Source of the DNA: Craspedostauros australis
Taxonomy: Eukaryota; Bacillariophyta; Bacillariophyceae; Mastogloiales; Achnanthaceae
NCBI GenBank assembly: GCA_026770025.1
Contig: JAMXDE010000010.1
Location: forward strand, 2,232,001 to 2,296,000
Direction of reading: 5' to 3'
DNA length: 64,000 nt
Shown here: positions 32,099 to 39,954 of the stretch, piece by piece
Layout: each line of letters starts with the position of its first letter
How positions within the stretch are numbered: the stretch's first letter is position 1
Program-made: the position numbers and the translations under genes
Notes under the pieces: model-generated
Databases searched by the model: none
Told to the model about the DNA's origin: nothing
What the model saw: the letters and a program-made list of their open reading frames with translations, nothing else

Positions 32099-34414
32099 AT
32101 GGACTCGAGCGAAGGCAACGATGAGTACTCCACAGCTCGCAAGCTCGTGATGCGCGCGGCAAAGCGAGAGCAGGCACTGACTTCGTTGAAGGGGAAAGGG
32201 ATGGCCGACGGCTCGGGCGGTCTGGCCTCGGGCATCGGTGCGGACTTCTCCAACATGAGGCTGAAGCCCGATCACATCCAGCGACCGTGCTGGGTGTGCC
32301 CCGATGGCAACATCTACTTGGAGGCCTTCCACGATCTGTACACCCAGGCCTACGACTTCCTCGTCGCCATCGCGGAGCCAGTGGCGAGACCCGAATTCCT
32401 GCACCAGTACAAGCTCACGCCGTACAGCCTGTACGCTGCCGTGGCAACCAACATCGCAACCGAGAGCATCATCTCCGTTCTGGAGCGCTTGTCCAAGAAC
32501 GCGCTGCCGAAGGATGTGAAGAAGTTCATCCGGGATTGCACCACCAAGTACGGAAAGGCCAAGCTCGTTCTGAAGCACAACAAGTTCTACGTCGAGTCCG
32601 AGTACCCCATGGTGCTGCGAGAATTGCTAAGAGATCCCACCATCGCACAGGCCAGGGTGCAGGAGGATATCGACAACGTCGATGAGCATGGCTTCATCAC
32701 GCAGACGAAGGCGGAAGAAATGAAGGAGAACTTGCACATCCTGCGCGAACCTGACGAGGATTCGGACGAGGAGGAGGGAGGTGACTCGCAGCAGGCCGCG
32801 AAGCCCGCCACCGTGGTCTCGTTCCAGGTGGACGGCAGCAAGGTGGAGAGCGTCAAGCGCCAGGCCATCGAACTAGACTACCCGCTCATGGAGGAGTACG
32901 ACTTTCGCAACGATCACACAAACCCAAACATCCCCATGATGGACCTCAAGCCGATCACCAGAATCCGCCGGTACCAGGAGCGTTCCCTCGCGAAGATGTT
33001 TGGTAACGGCCGCGCGCGATCCGGAATCATCGTGCTGCCGTGCGGTGCAGGCAAGACGCTGACGGGCGTGACCGCCGCCCAGACCATCAAAAAGTCCGTG
33101 GTGTGCTTGGCGACCAACGCCGTCTCGGTCCTTCAATGGAAGTATCAGTTCCAGAAGTGGACCAACATCCCGGATGACCGCATCGCAGTCTTCACCAGCG
33201 ACCAGAAGGAGAATCTGCACCCAGAGGCGTGCGTGCTGGTCACGACCTACACCATGATCTCGTATTCCGGAAACCGGTCCGATCAATCGCAAAAGGTCAT
33301 GGACCAGATCACGGGCCGCGAGTGGGGCCTGCTCCTCATGGACGAGGTGCACGTCGTCCCAGCCAAGATGTTCCGCCGCGTCATCGGCAGCGTCAAGGCG
33401 CACTGCCGGCTGGGCCTCACGGCGACTCTCGTGCGTGAGGATGACCTCATCTCCGATCTCAACTTCCTCATCGGTCCGAAGCTCTACGAGGCCAACTGGA
33501 TGGATCTCACCGCTCAGGGGTACCTGGCGAACGTGCAGTGTATCGAGGTGTGGTGCCCCATGACGGGACCCTTCATGAAGGAATACCTCATGGCGACCAA
33601 CGCCCGGCTGAAGCAGTTGCTCTACGTCATGAACCCTTCCAAGCTCCGCGCCGTTGAGTACCTGGTGCGATTCCACGAAAGCCGCGGCGACAAGATCATC
33701 GTCTTTTCCGACCTCGTGTACTCGCTCAAGCTGTACGCCGAGATGCTCGTGAAGCCATTGATCTACGGTGAGACACCCGAGAAGGAGCGTCAGGCCATCC
33801 TGGGTACGTTCCGTTCGACGGACGCCGTGCGCACCATCTGTATTTCGAAGGTCGGAGACACGTCCATCGATCTGCCCGAGGCCAACGTCATCATCCAGGT
33901 CTCCAGCCACTTCGGTAGTCGTCGACAGGAGGCGCAACGCCTGGGACGTATCCTGCGTCCCAAGTCGTATACGCAGACGGACGGCAGCAACCGCAGCAAC
34001 TTCAACGCCTTCTTCTACACCCTCGTCAGTTCCGACACGCAGGAGATGTTCTACTCCGCCAAACGCCAGCAGTATCTCATCGATCAAGGTTACACCTTCA
34101 AGATCGTCACGAACCTCTGCGACAAGGCCGCGGAAGAGGCCGTCAAGAACAACTATGCCTACAGCACCCCGGAAAAAGATCGCGAGCTTTTGCGCACCGT
34201 TCTGACCTCCGAGAGCGACCTCGAGAAGGAGCAGAAGGCGGAGGACACCGCCATCCGCAAGAGCAACCAAGACGGTGCGGCCATGGCCGATGCCGGTGTG
34301 AAACGCTCCGTCGGATCCTCCATGGCACAGATGAGCGGAGGATCCGGCATGCGGTACCGCGAGGTTTCCAAGTCGAAGAAGCATCCGCTGTTCCGCAAAC
34401 GTCAACGGCGGTAG
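32099..34414 (+). CDS. ERCC3: TFIIH helicase subunit XPB/ERCC3 (Rad25/Ssl2)
   Basis: 771 residues, intronless, from ATGG with A at -3. XPB is the ATP-dependent 3'-5' DNA translocase of TFIIH that opens promoters for RNA polymerase II and DNA at lesions in nucleotide excision repair. In order: an N-terminal XPB domain (residues 60-180, WVCPDGNIYLEAF), an acidic linker (about 220), helicase domain 1 with the Walker A CGAGKT (315-320), the DEVH box (415-418) and the XPB-specific RED motif (446-448), then a thumb-like segment, helicase domain 2 with the arginine-finger motif QEAQRLGRILRPK (610-622), and a basic C-terminus (KKHPLFRKRQRR). Length and motifs match human and yeast XPB. All catalytic motifs are intact, so it should be functional. 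Confidence 0.97.
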   Translation: MDSSEGNDEYSTARKLVMRAAKREQALTSLKGKGMADGSGGLASGIGADFSNMRLKPDHIQRPCWVCPDGNIYLEAFHDLYTQAYDFLVAIAEPVARPEFLHQYKLTPYSLYAAVATNIATESIISVLERLSKNALPKDVKKFIRDCTTKYGKAKLVLKHNKFYVESEYPMVLRELLRDPTIAQARVQEDIDNVDEHGFITQTKAEEMKENLHILREPDEDSDEEEGGDSQQAAKPATVVSFQVDGSKVESVKRQAIELDYPLMEEYDFRNDHTNPNIPMMDLKPITRIRRYQERSLAKMFGNGRARSGIIVLPCGAGKTLTGVTAAQTIKKSVVCLATNAVSVLQWKYQFQKWTNIPDDRIAVFTSDQKENLHPEACVLVTTYTMISYSGNRSDQSQKVMDQITGREWGLLLMDEVHVVPAKMFRRVIGSVKAHCRLGLTATLVREDDLISDLNFLIGPKLYEANWMDLTAQGYLANVQCIEVWCPMTGPFMKEYLMATNARLKQLLYVMNPSKLRAVEYLVRFHESRGDKIIVFSDLVYSLKLYAEMLVKPLIYGETPEKERQAILGTFRSTDAVRTICISKVGDTSIDLPEANVIIQVSSHFGSRRQEAQRLGRILRPKSYTQTDGSNRSNFNAFFYTLVSSDTQEMFYSAKRQQYLIDQGYTFKIVTNLCDKAAEEAVKNNYAYSTPEKDRELLRTVLTSESDLEKEQKAEDTAIRKSNQDGAAMADAGVKRSVGSSMAQMSGGSGMRYREVSKSKKHPLFRKRQRR

Positions 34415-35810
34415 GTTGGGCGCGCCATGCTTGCTGCGAAGCTCACATGCCATCCCACGCACGATACATACGAGTATGGCAACAAGCACAACGCATTGCA
34501 TATGGCATAGTAGCACGATCAACGGAATTCTAAAAAAGAAAAAGAAACAATGAATATACTTGGATCAAACAATGGAGAGACATGCGTCTACTTCCCATGC
34601 TCTCGTGATATCCTTGTGTGCACTTCTATACTCTCTATGCTCGCAGCGTATTCAATCCATCCTGTTTGCAGCATCAGCAACGTCTGGACCATCGCGACCT
34701 GCCAAGAGCGACACAAGTGGTCCGCCAGGTTGCACGCTAAAATTATGGACGTGTACAGATGGGTTATGGGTCGCAGTTGCAACCGCAACCAACCACAATT
34801 TGGTTTCGGATCTTTGGCCATCCCGAACATGTTGAACATCAACACAATCGGGAACACAAAGCAGAACAAGAACACACTCGACGATGGGGCCAACTACCAC
34901 AAATCGATGATCGTCCACGAAAGTGTAGAGTATGGTATTATACTAGACGACACCATGACCAGGAGCAGGCACAACACCTCACCAGATGGGACAGGCATCA
35001 TTCTCTTCAAACCGTAGTCTTCATGGGCAGTCTGAGGGTCGAGCATGAAGTATCGCATGAAGTCAAGCTTCGTTGTGCAGCAGTTCCAGCATGGCACCAG
35101 GACATGGCAGGTACGTAATCGGACAACGCCCTATTGTTGCAGAGAAAGACACTGATTGAACAATGCAATGCAATGCAACACAACGCACATTCGTATTCGG
35201 GATGACGAAGAACCATACTCTATGCACTTAGCGACAATGCGCAATTCGTTGTGTATTTCGGACGTCGTTTTGATGTCGGCATGTGAGAGGAAGATACAAG
35301 TCTTAAGTTTTAATTTCTAACCGAAGAGATGTGTGCATGTGGAAAGGGAAGAACTGAGTTGCAACGTCTCACTCATCGAAGATCCTGGAGTCTCACCTTG
35401 TGCTGTTGCCGTCGTTTTTGTTCACGCTCCCAAATTTCCAGTGCGCCCACCGTATGGGAACGCATTCTACAGGGATCTCATAGATCGTAGACATGGTGAT
35501 GGCACCTGCGATTCCTACAGAAGAAGCAAGCTCCAGCACAAAACGTTGGTATGATGCAGAATACTGTTTGCATACCGTGTTCAGAAATTGCATCCCGCGT
35601 CCTCCGCAGTGCTATGTTGAGATTTGAATGCACTGGCTCGGTCGCCTACCAACGAGTAATCCAGCACTCTGTAGCAATTGCCTGCCCTTTCGGGACAGTT
35701 TATTTTGTGAAATCAACGTTAAATTTGCTGAACCCGCTGAATGGTGAATGAATTGAGTTGAATTACGGGTGTATGTTACCATGCTCCGTCGCAAAGTTGC
35801 ATATCGCGGC
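34415..35810. other. Intergenic region between XPB and MsrA
   Basis: No gene recognised. The right side is the far part of, or beyond, the MsrA 3' UTR. Confidence 0.4.
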
Positions 35811-35890
35811 GAAAGATTCCACTTCTTTTTCAGTCAAAGATCCCATGTTGAGCATCTTGCCTTTGACGTCATTCCGATTCTTGAATCCTT
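35811..35890 (-). promoter_or_regulatory. SECIS element candidate (type II)
   Basis: On the minus strand, about 250 bases after the MsrA stop. Helix I pairs AAGGATTC (35890-35883) with GAATCTTT (35818-35811), one G-U pair. The quartet is ATGA (35872-35869) against TGAA (35832-35829), giving the tandem G.A/A.G pairs. Helix II pairs GTCAAAG (35867-35861) with CTTTGAC (35839-35833), seven Watson-Crick pairs. Exactly ten bases separate ATGA from an unpaired AA in the apical internal loop. A 3-bp mini-stem ATG/CAT tops the loop, as in type II SECIS. This is what is needed to recode UGA as selenocysteine. Seen by eye; not folded by program. Confidence 0.85.
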
Positions 35891-36137
35891 CCGATCGCAA
35901 CCGCACCAATGATCGAGAACGACCGTGATCATCAGTTAACAACCAAACAAATGATTGCTTGGCTAATTGGGTATGGGGGGACTCTTGTTTCCCTTGCCCC
36001 GCCCATCTCCCGTCTCTCCAATCTTTTTATCCATTGCAGAATGCATTATTTTGACATGCGAATGCTCACGACGCCGCAATCGTATGGTAGAGTATGTATG
36101 GTGCAATACCTGCCTGCCTGTCTGCCTCCCTGCCTGT

Positions 36138-36782
36138 CTACATGAGCATCTTGTCCAAATACTTTTGATGGTACTCCTCGGCACGGTAGAAGTCCGATCC
36201 ATCCTCCACAGCAACCATCTCGGCCATGGCTTTGCCGCGCATGCGCAAGGCCCGCTCGGCAAGACGCCGCTGCTCCTCCGTATGCACGAAGATGGCGGAA
36301 CGGTACTGCGTGCCGCACCAACGCGGATCGGCCGGCGTGTGGAACTGGAAGAACATGTGCAGGAGCTCGCTGTAGTCCACGACGTCGGGATCGAACTCAA
36401 CGCGGATGGATTCTGCATAATCCAGGATGTTCTGGTAGGTGGGATTGGGAGTATCCTGCGGATTCTTGGAACCGCTGTATCCGACCACCGTCGATTGCAC
36501 GCCCTTGACGCGATCGTAATCACGCTGAGGGCCCCAAAATCATCCCATGGCGACCTCGAAGATCGTGGAGGGGTCCGTGACGGGCGGCAGGAGCGGGCAG
36601 ATGCTGTTCGCGGCGGTCGCGGCGTTGCTGTTGCCACCGTTGTTGAAGAACGATGACATGCCCAATTGGGACGCTGCGCCATTTCTGGCAACAGTGGTCT
36701 TGCCGTTTGGAAGGGAGGGGCTGAAGGCGGCTGCGGAGCACAGCGCCAGAAGCAACGTCAGCGTTCTCATTGTCACCATCAT
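36138..36782 (-). CDS. MSRA: Peptide methionine sulfoxide reductase A, selenoprotein, plastid-targeted
   Basis: MsrA reduces methionine-S-sulfoxide in proteins. The catalytic motif GCFWG reads G-TGA-FWG here: the in-frame TGA (36542-36540) sits exactly at the nucleophilic cysteine codon, and the frame continues with 133 residues of clear MsrA sequence (VVGYSG, NPTYQNILDYAE, VEFDP, GTQYRSAIF, EEYHQKYL) to TAG at 36138. With selenocysteine the protein has 214 residues, Sec at 81. The SECIS candidate in the 3' UTR supports recoding. The N-terminus (MMVTMRTLTLLLALCSAAAFSPS) is a signal peptide with the diatom plastid cleavage pattern A-F. An upstream in-frame ATG at 36881 would add a poly-Gln leader and mask the signal. 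The only other cysteine late in the protein (about 156, WCGTQY) is a possible resolving residue. Selenoprotein MsrA is known from green and other algae. Confidence 0.92.
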
Positions 36783-37513
36783 CTTGCACACGATCGTGGG
36801 TATGTGCGAGTACTCGTGTTCAAGCACTCCACAAACACGTCGCCGATGACCTTGCTGCTGTTGCTGCTGCTGCTGTATCAACTTGTATTGGTGGTTGTGT
36901 TTGTGGTTCCAACAACGAGCGCGATGGTGATCACGGTGGTGGTCGTTCCTTGGATGTCCTTGCTTGCCGATGACGATTGTGTCTCTGGACGTGTTCGCGT
37001 GTCAATCGTTGCCAACGAAGAAAACAGAGTTTGTCGGAACTAGTGATTCACCATTCCCGCTCCAATCGGAAGGAGCCAATTCAATCCTGTTTCCGAGTGA
37101 ATGAAATGGTTGTTCTCATTTGCTAGGGACTGAGAGTCATTGGGGACTGCGGTATCCAGAGACACCAAAATGACCAAAACGCTGGCTTTGTGCGCGGTTT
37201 TCATGCAAAACAGTTCTTCGGCATTTCTGTCGCTCTGTTCCCTCCTTGGTTGTTGTGTGGTGCGGGCGCCATTCCGCACATCAATGTCCAGACTGGTGCA
37301 AGGTATAACACCTCTCTGGAGAAGCCGCTGCTTGTACATACACCACAAGTCAGAACGGCGCGCAAGCAACCACCAGACCACCAGATCACAAAGGCCTAAA
37401 GGAACAGACAAGTACGCGTGCATAAAGGCCAAGTATTCTATTCTATTGTGTTGTGTTGTGTTGTGTTGTGTTGTGTTGTGTTGTGCACTACAGCAGAAAT
37501 AACGAAGACAATC
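36783..37513. other. Divergent promoter region with (TTGTG)8
   Basis: Holds the promoters of MsrA and the RING protein. CAG/CTG repeats lie near 36850-36875, and eight perfect TTGTG units lie at 37446-37485 in the leader of the RING gene, ending 28 bases before its ATG. Confidence 0.5.
37446..37485 (+). repeat. (TTGTG)8 pentanucleotide repeat
   Basis: Eight exact units just upstream of the start codon at 37514, so probably transcribed in the 5' UTR. Confidence 0.95.
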
Positions 37514-38992
37514 ATGGGCTCGGACGAGAAGACGTCGAGCAAGAAGAAAAAGAAGGACGAGGAGGCCAAGAAGAAGAGCAAGAAGAAGAAGAGCAGCAGC
37601 GACGGCGACGCCAAGAAGAAGTCGGAGAAGAAGCCGTCGTCCAAATCGAAGAAGTCGAGCACCAAGAATGGCGCGAAGGACAGCAGCAAGGATGCCAAGA
37701 AGAGCAAGAAGAAGAGCAGCAGCGGCAAGTCCAAGAAGTCCAGCAGCAAGAGCAGCAGCAAGGATGCCAAGAAGGAGGTGAAGGAGGGCGTCTGCGTCAT
37801 TTGCAAGGATGAGACCGTCCCGGCAACCCTCATCGTCGTCGGCAGCCACTGTCGCCACAACTTCTGCCTGGATTGCCTGGAGCACCGGCTGGCGAGGCCC
37901 ATCCCAGGTGAGCCCAAGCCGGAGGACAACCATCTGGGAGCTCCCACGCTGGGACGCTGTCCCGAATGCAACGAGGAGCTGCGCAAGTTCGGCGTCAAGG
38001 AGTTGAAGAAATCCAAGCTCTACTACACCAAGGATTTCGACATCGCCGAGTCGCCTTTGGCCGGCAAGGTCTACCATCGCAAGAAGACCGACAGCGAGCG
38101 TCCGCCGATCGGCTCCTTCCACTTCGATTCCGACGAGAAGGACGACAAGGGACGCATGCGACCTTTCATGGACTTCTCGGAGGCCATCGACCATGATGAG
38201 AAGGAGGAGGTCTGGGTCCTCAACAACGGCGAGCCGGTCCCCGATCGAAAATTCTTCGACCCCGGCTGCCATTACGACGCCTACACGCGCACCTTCCACG
38301 GATCCATATCGTGGAAGCCCTGCCGATTCCACGGCAGCCACCGATGGGACATCATCCTGGGCTTCGCCAAGGACTTCTCCTTCTTGCGCGTCGGCCTCAT
38401 CCACAAACGCAAGGAACGGTGCGGCGTCGTCACCATGTCCTCCGACAAGAACCGCCTGCTCTACCCCCTCGACGGCAGGTGGAAGCTCACGTGGAACAAC
38501 GCCGACGGCGAGGAGCAGACCGGCACGGTCAACGTCCGCAACAACGAGTTCCGCCAGGGTCCCTACACCTTCAATCTCATGCTCGACGATCCTTCAACGC
38601 CAGGATTCCGCTGGCCGTTGGATCCCATCTACGCTTCGTCCAAATCAGGATTGGATCTTGGTGAGAAGCCGAAGGGTCCCGGCATCGGCAAGAAGGTCGT
38701 GTGGGAGACCACGCATCCCAGCTTCCCCATCATGAAGTGGCATCGCGAGACGATCGGCGAGATGCCCATCCAGGCCACGGAGCATCTCGGTCCGCCGCCG
38801 TACGAGTACATCGAGCAGAGCAACATGGAAGGCGGTGCTGCGGGCAAGGGCGGTGGCGAGGATTCGGACTCGGATGAGGATTCCACCGGCTGGGATGACA
38901 CGGTTTCGGATTCCGAATCGGAGTCGGAAGAGAGCAGCTTTGAAGGATCTTCGGATGACGACTCGGACGACGACGATGATGATTCGGATTAG
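37514..38992 (+). CDS. C3HC4 RING-finger protein with Lys-rich head and acidic tail
   Basis: 492 residues. The ATG at 37514 (ATCATGGG) is preferred over earlier non-ATG starts. Residues 1-90 are an almost pure Lys/Ser/Asp tract. A RING finger follows: C94-x2-C97, C113-x-H115-x2-C118-x2-C121, then a long loop to C149-x2-C152, the zinc ligand set of a C3HC4 RING with an enlarged second loop. RING proteins are mostly E3 ubiquitin ligases. The middle (residues 190-440) is ordered, Trp/Phe-rich (SISWKPCRFHGSHRWDIILGFAKDF, GRWKLTWNNADGEEQTGT) and may be a beta-rich substrate-binding domain I do not recognise. The last 50 residues are acidic Asp/Ser. The opposite-strand open frame here is a composition shadow. 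Confidence 0.8.
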   Translation: MGSDEKTSSKKKKKDEEAKKKSKKKKSSSDGDAKKKSEKKPSSKSKKSSTKNGAKDSSKDAKKSKKKSSSGKSKKSSSKSSSKDAKKEVKEGVCVICKDETVPATLIVVGSHCRHNFCLDCLEHRLARPIPGEPKPEDNHLGAPTLGRCPECNEELRKFGVKELKKSKLYYTKDFDIAESPLAGKVYHRKKTDSERPPIGSFHFDSDEKDDKGRMRPFMDFSEAIDHDEKEEVWVLNNGEPVPDRKFFDPGCHYDAYTRTFHGSISWKPCRFHGSHRWDIILGFAKDFSFLRVGLIHKRKERCGVVTMSSDKNRLLYPLDGRWKLTWNNADGEEQTGTVNVRNNEFRQGPYTFNLMLDDPSTPGFRWPLDPIYASSKSGLDLGEKPKGPGIGKKVVWETTHPSFPIMKWHRETIGEMPIQATEHLGPPPYEYIEQSNMEGGAAGKGGGEDSDSDEDSTGWDDTVSDSESESEESSFEGSSDDDSDDDDDDSD

Positions 38993-39414: not shown

Positions 39415-39954
39415 TCACGACGATGCCGATTCGATGACCTCCGCCAACTGCGACATGGCCTTCTTTGCGAATTCCTTGGGCTCCTTAATCTTGACCTTGC
39501 CATTGCCGGGCTGGAAGTAAACGAAGACGTTGTCGTACGTGATCTGATCGCACAGCTGCAGATTGTAGGCCAATTCATCCTTTAGTTCGAACAGCTCGAT
39601 GTTGCCCGTGGATTTGGCCAGCTGCAAGACGGGGTTCTGCGAATCGCCCAAGTTCCACAGCTTGTTGACGGGCGGCGTCTTGAGGATGCTGCGCACCTTG
39701 TCCCATTGCTGGTCTTCGAGAAGATCCGGGATGGGCTGCAGCTTGTCCTGGCTGTCGCGCAGATCCTGCAACAAGGCGTCGGTGCTGGCCGCCACGGCCG
39801 GTGCGGGTGTGATGGACAATGCCGTCGTGAGGAAGGCGGCCGAGGTCGCGTCCTGCAGCAGAGATCGTCGCGACGTCGGCTGTTGGTTGTTCGTCCATGC
39901 CATGCATGCGGCGCATGTGGCGACCAGTAGGAGGAAGGTGCGTTGCGGATTCAT
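39415..39954 (-). CDS. Thylakoid-lumen protein with tripartite presequence, Psb31/PsbQ-like candidate
   Basis: 179 residues. The presequence has three parts typical of lumen proteins in secondary plastids: a signal peptide (FLLLVATCAACMA, cleavage before WT), a short transit stretch, and a twin-arginine lumen signal (SRRSLLQDATSAAFLTTALSITPAPAVA, cleavage after AVA). The mature part of about 120 residues is helical (TDALLQDLRDSQDKLQPIPDLLEDQQW, VRSILKTPPVNKLWNLGDSQ, LELKDELAYNLQLCDQ) and ends in a helix after PGNGKVKIKEP. Helical, Pro-broken lumen proteins of this size include the PSII extrinsic subunits PsbQ' and Psb31 of diatoms. I favour a Psb31-like role, but only from memory of the family, so the name is tentative while the location is well supported. 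Confidence 0.7.
   Translation of the reverse strand: MNPQRTFLLLVATCAACMAWTNNQQPTSRRSLLQDATSAAFLTTALSITPAPAVAASTDALLQDLRDSQDKLQPIPDLLEDQQWDKVRSILKTPPVNKLWNLGDSQNPVLQLAKSTGNIELFELKDELAYNLQLCDQITYDNVFVYFQPGNGKVKIKEPKEFAKKAMSQLAEVIESASS

Follow-up and report, generated by a model that had tools for sequence, protein, structure and literature searches.

A frame for MsrA in a 64,000-nucleotide stretch of DNA from Craspedostauros australis (the whole stretch analysed, hereafter the window) contains an in-frame TGA, and the question raised by this locus is whether that codon ends translation or is read as selenocysteine (Sec). The frame lies on the minus strand at 36138..36782 and comprises 214 codons and a TAG stop, with no intron being required. 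It begins with the ATG at 36782 and terminates with the TAG at codon 215 (36140-36138, minus strand), the closest in-frame stop on the 5' side being located 74 codons upstream of the ATG, and the only other stop that it contains is the TGA at codon 81 (36540..36542, minus strand). Codons 77 to 86 read V-A-M-G-[TGA]-F-W-G-P-Q, and the TGA was thus confirmed to correspond to the catalytic Cys codon of MsrA in the GxFWG motif, as the initial annotation had claimed for 36542-36540. Taken as a whole, the observations described below are best explained by a Sec-MsrA gene in which UGA codon 81 is very probably read as Sec, an assignment that draws on the reading of the frame together with the presence of Sec machinery in the genome.

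The assignment to the MsrA family was clear. With the TGA read as Cys, the read-through protein matched the Pfam family PMSR (PF01625) over residues 77-211 with an E value of 9.7e-36 and a score of 123.7 bits, compared with a curated cut-off of 23.7 bits, and codons 80-84 (G-[TGA]-FWG) form an active site of the GCFWG type. Matches to the read-through protein in PDB at E ≤ 0.001 comprised 30 distinct sequences, all 30 of which are named methionine sulfoxide reductases. An alignment with 38 of the 80 prokaryotic contig loci, in which column 81 was scored as kept since the TGA was read as Cys, showed that the protein retains 20 of the 22 columns invariant in these relatives (the departures being G105S and T190V) and 15 of the 19 columns with conservation of at least 90%. 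The PMSR match and the conserved columns bear out the further claim that MsrA conservation continues in the same frame on both sides of the TGA. The frame therefore presents an in-frame TGA at a Sec/Cys position flanked on either side by homologous sequence, the pattern by which a eukaryotic selenoprotein is recognized.

On the 3' side of the TGA, 133 codons remain open and contain conserved MsrA sequence, and the GC content at third positions is 0.81 upstream and 0.75 downstream of the TGA. Given that frame +1 is likewise free of stops 3' of the TGA, openness of the frame alone is weak evidence, and it is homology that decides. A second open frame of 242 amino acids (window positions 35963-36691, minus strand) lies on the MsrA strand in a different frame, overlapping the gene, and is probably an effect of the high third-position GC content.

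These features allowed us to weigh the possibility that the gene is a pseudogene or nonsense allele, with the TGA terminating translation and the downstream half decaying. Twelve PMSR matches were found in the searched genome (74.8 Mb in 90 contigs). A TGA interrupts only the window gene, a TAA occurs in one other match, and the remaining 10 are free of stops; all seven paralogs for which the motif was read (L001-L005, L007, and L008) have Cys at the catalytic site. Loss of the gene could thus be covered by at least seven Cys-type MsrA paralogs, and the departures from two of 22 otherwise invariant columns also fit decay. The 133 codons downstream of the TGA nonetheless contain no stop and retain almost every conserved residue, a SECIS-shaped hairpin lies downstream, and the TGA coincides with the only codon at which Sec is known, a position that a random nonsense change would be expected, by reasoning, to strike with a chance of about 1 in 135 domain residues. 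We therefore consider a pseudogene very unlikely. Excision of the TGA with an intron is more improbable still, to the point of being negligible: although 88 frame-keeping GT..AG pairs surround the TGA, existing by chance, all 88 excisions would remove codon 81 and hence the catalytic residue, to which the conserved G80 on one side and F82-W83-G84 on the other are directly adjacent. Both of these readings, intron and pseudogene, were rejected on these grounds.

Other open frames in the window were also inspected. A frame of 771 amino acids at 32099-34414 (plus strand) matched the XPB/ERCC3 (TFIIH) helicase (PF16203, 9.7e-110), and one of 524 amino acids at 37418-38992 (plus strand) begins with a stretch rich in lysine and serine and contains a RING-like zinc finger that scores below the Pfam cut-off. 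A frame of 179 amino acids at 39415-39954 (minus strand), for which no Pfam match was obtained, starts with a signal peptide–like and twin-arginine–like region (SRRSLLQ...APAVA), and, as judged by eye, its product could be a plastid lumen protein.

Decoding of UGA as Sec depends on dedicated machinery, whose absence from the genome was named in the initial annotation as grounds for abandoning the selenoprotein reading. The genome was found to contain tRNA-Sec, SecS, SelD, and a piece of eEFSec. The search for tRNA-Sec returned five matches, one of which was above the cut-off (76.6 bits) and has the anticodon TCA, with the remaining four being assigned to Leu or Ser by ARAGORN. SecS was detected as two pieces on contig C4 (best E value, 9.7e-70). 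SelD gave a single match in the genome (2.8e-61) with an in-frame TGA at LKG*ACKIPQ, which we take to be the Sec site of SPS2. None of the 27 matches to the bacterial selB profile in the genome was above the profile cut-off; one of them, C2:164390-164875, is a piece of eEFSec, matching human eEFSec (5izk) at 5.8e-41 as compared with 3.6e-14 for the best EF-Tu. TGA codons at Sec-like sites were also observed in two of three GPx matches, one of two Rdx (SelT-like) matches, and both SelM matches, at positions that presumably are Sec sites. In this genome, recoding of UGA appears to be a general feature. The Sec machinery and the additional TGA genes, together with a published diatom Sec-MsrA discussed below, support the view that the window MsrA is a selenoprotein.

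A SECIS-like hairpin is located at 35806..35894 on the minus strand, with its ATGAC lying 265 nt 3' of the MsrA stop codon. It consists of a lower stem of 9 bp (-11.7 kcal), a core formed by ATGAC (35872-35868) and TGAA (35832-35829) separated by 35 nt, and an upper stem of 8 bp (-8.0 kcal), with an unpaired AA situated 9 nt into the upper part of the element. Listed sites at which both stems passed -8 numbered nine in 269,106 bases of the genome with both strands counted, including the MsrA element itself and sites listed more than once, which corresponds arithmetically to an expected 0.015 to 0.017 sites per 500 nt of one strand, a figure that flatters the element given that the thresholds were its own values. 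Fold z-scores for the whole hairpin were ordinary (0.51, -0.40, and -0.64; not significant). Rfam gave no SECIS match at the MsrA locus; it also gave no match of any kind at the seven TGA-gene loci (MsrA and six others), so the blank result at MsrA says little.

Hairpin scans of the six other TGA genes, which reached 1.5 kb on each side, revealed a clear SECIS-like element for SelD only (-28.8 kcal) and a weak one (-4.6 kcal) for the GPx gene L110; the SECIS elements of these genes may lie beyond the scanned flanks. The strict scan applied to MsrA, SelD, and L110 listed MsrA alone and thus missed the strong SelD element, indicating that its sensitivity is poor and that real-looking elements escape it. 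Among eight Cys-type loci scanned, one SECIS-like match was found (L001), at 1205 nt past the end of the match. Support for a SECIS at 35894-35806 is accordingly moderate, with the right shape and place being set against ordinary z-scores and a blank Rfam search. Another strong hairpin resembling a SECIS was noted at locus L009, near 2384, beside tRNA-Sec (upper stem, -12.7 or -13.7 kcal; lower stem, -22.3 or -16.4 kcal); it either arose by chance or belongs to the 3' UTR of a further selenoprotein gene.

The statement that Sec-MsrA is known in algae agrees with the literature. A Sec-MsrA is reported in the diatom Thalassiosira pseudonana among 16 selenoprotein genes that also include GPx, SelT, SPS2, and SelM (PMC2375036), and in being a diatom MsrA selenoprotein it is similar, as judged by description, to the window protein. 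A "bacterium-like MsrA selenoprotein," MsrA_b, has been described for picoplanktonic Mamiellophyceae and M. viride (PMC6627142). Like the window protein, it is an algal Sec-MsrA of bacterial type, although, as compared by description only, it is reported for green algae whereas the window gene belongs to a diatom; that the two are of the same type is a guess. The genome is likely that of a diatom or a near relative on the evidence of Rubisco as well: the best matches of the RbcL core on contig C90 were 5n9z, 5mz2, 5oya, and 6ftl, entries that a review assigns to the diatoms Thalassiosira hyalina, T. antarctica, Chaetoceros socialis, and Skeletonema marinoi (PMC9833100). Given that algal Sec-MsrA was already known, the window gene is a sound but expected find.

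The catalytic site of relatives was also compared. Among 81 relatives, consisting of 80 prokaryotic contig loci and the one relative (35% identity) found by a search of IMG/VR, the catalytic residue was Cys in 73 and TGA in one (L076, from a Spirochaetales MAG), with seven falling outside the motif search. An MsrA match was found in 174 of 296 Spirochaetota genomes. The best three matches (L076, L123, and L124), with the query's own genome included, have one TGA each, and the other matches listed have none. The motif was read in two of these three genes, L076 and L124, and in both the TGA is at the catalytic codon, showing that Sec-MsrA occurs in Spirochaetota.

PDB entry 4w8c, which we take to be Clostridium oremlandii SelenoMsrA, provided a further point of comparison. 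The window MsrA, C. oremlandii SelenoMsrA, L076, L124, and the Cys proteins L017, L021, and L080 have in common GxFWGP, a deletion of four residues after NPxYxxI/L, and shortening of the NRQGND loop. The loop deletion is one to two residues smaller in the window protein, leaving its loop one to two residues longer than those of the bacterial group, and the paralog L007 of the same genome likewise has a short loop at this position; the four-residue deletion is therefore the better mark of kinship. C. oremlandii SelenoMsrA resembles the window protein also in having Sec at the catalytic place. It differs, however, in its lack of Cys, in an additional helical domain at the C-terminus, and in its bacterial SECIS, whereas the window protein has Cys62, Cys156, and an N-terminal extension and lacks the C-terminal helical domain. 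The C. oremlandii enzyme, for which PDB entry 4lwm is named in the published work, is described there as lacking Cys, as accepting glutaredoxin but not thioredoxin as its reductant, and as having an activity 20-fold higher in the Sec form than in the Cys form (PMC4479559).

In a first tree, for which 56 of 83 rows were kept after removal of near-copies, the window MsrA was placed beside its own paralog L007 (93/85). A clade joining it to the bacterial short-loop rows was not rejected by the AU test (p = 0.698), and the log-likelihood of this joint clade was 13.04 higher, having been missed by the free search. In a second tree of 59 rows, from which the long rows L008_own and L094_x were dropped and to which five of nine Spirochaetota loci (L124-L128) were added (L123 and L129-L131 are absent, not having been picked up by the motif script), the window MsrA joined the bacterial short-loop group with support of 92/85, as it did in 94% of 200 bootstrap trees; this group had been picked after the deletions were seen. 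A bacterial-type origin of the window MsrA is thus likely, not proven. The trees also bear on whether the TGA is a sequencing or assembly error for TGC or TGT in an ordinary Cys MsrA, for which a single base change would suffice. The nearest subfamily in one tree includes bacterial TGA members, Sec-MsrA is expected in diatoms, and the SECIS-like hairpin is present, all of which speak against such an error, and we regard it as highly improbable.

Under the preferred reading as a Sec-MsrA, tRNA-Sec and eEFSec would insert Sec at UGA codon 81 under the direction of a 3' UTR SECIS. Sec81 would then attack, through its selenolate, the sulfoxide of methionine-S-sulfoxide, with the release of methionine and formation of a selenenic acid, which in turn would be reduced by a thiol, either that of Cys156 in the same chain or that of an external glutaredoxin or thioredoxin. 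Three cysteines are present in the protein: Cys15, in what is presumed to be the signal peptide, Cys62, and Cys156 (36315..36317, minus strand), the last of which lies in the shortened loop before GTQYRS. On the basis of position only, Cys156 is the likelier candidate for a resolving residue.

The N-terminus, MMVTMRTLTLLLALCSAAA followed by FSPS, resembles a signal peptide carrying a site of the ASAFAP type, with residues 1-19 (36726..36782, minus strand) being likely to form a signal peptide that, as judged by eye, ends in SAAA before Phe20, the Phe at position +1. Such a site is reported to mark plastid import in diatoms (PMC4329603), and the window MsrA is probably imported into the plastid. 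A literature survey made largely by title revealed no published account of plastid import for such an enzyme. The full combination, a plastid-imported, short-loop, bacterial-type diatom Sec-MsrA in which Cys156 acts as the resolving residue, so that a type that in bacteria lacks a resolving Cys and relies on glutaredoxin would have been refitted for plastid thioredoxin, is put forward tentatively and seems to us rather unlikely.

Standard pipelines would split this gene at its active site, and reading codon 81 as Sec puts the annotation right. It also adds an algal Sec-MsrA with deletions resembling those of bacterial Sec-MsrAs. If plastid import is true, the repair of methionine in a photosynthetic organelle would be directly affected by the supply of selenium.
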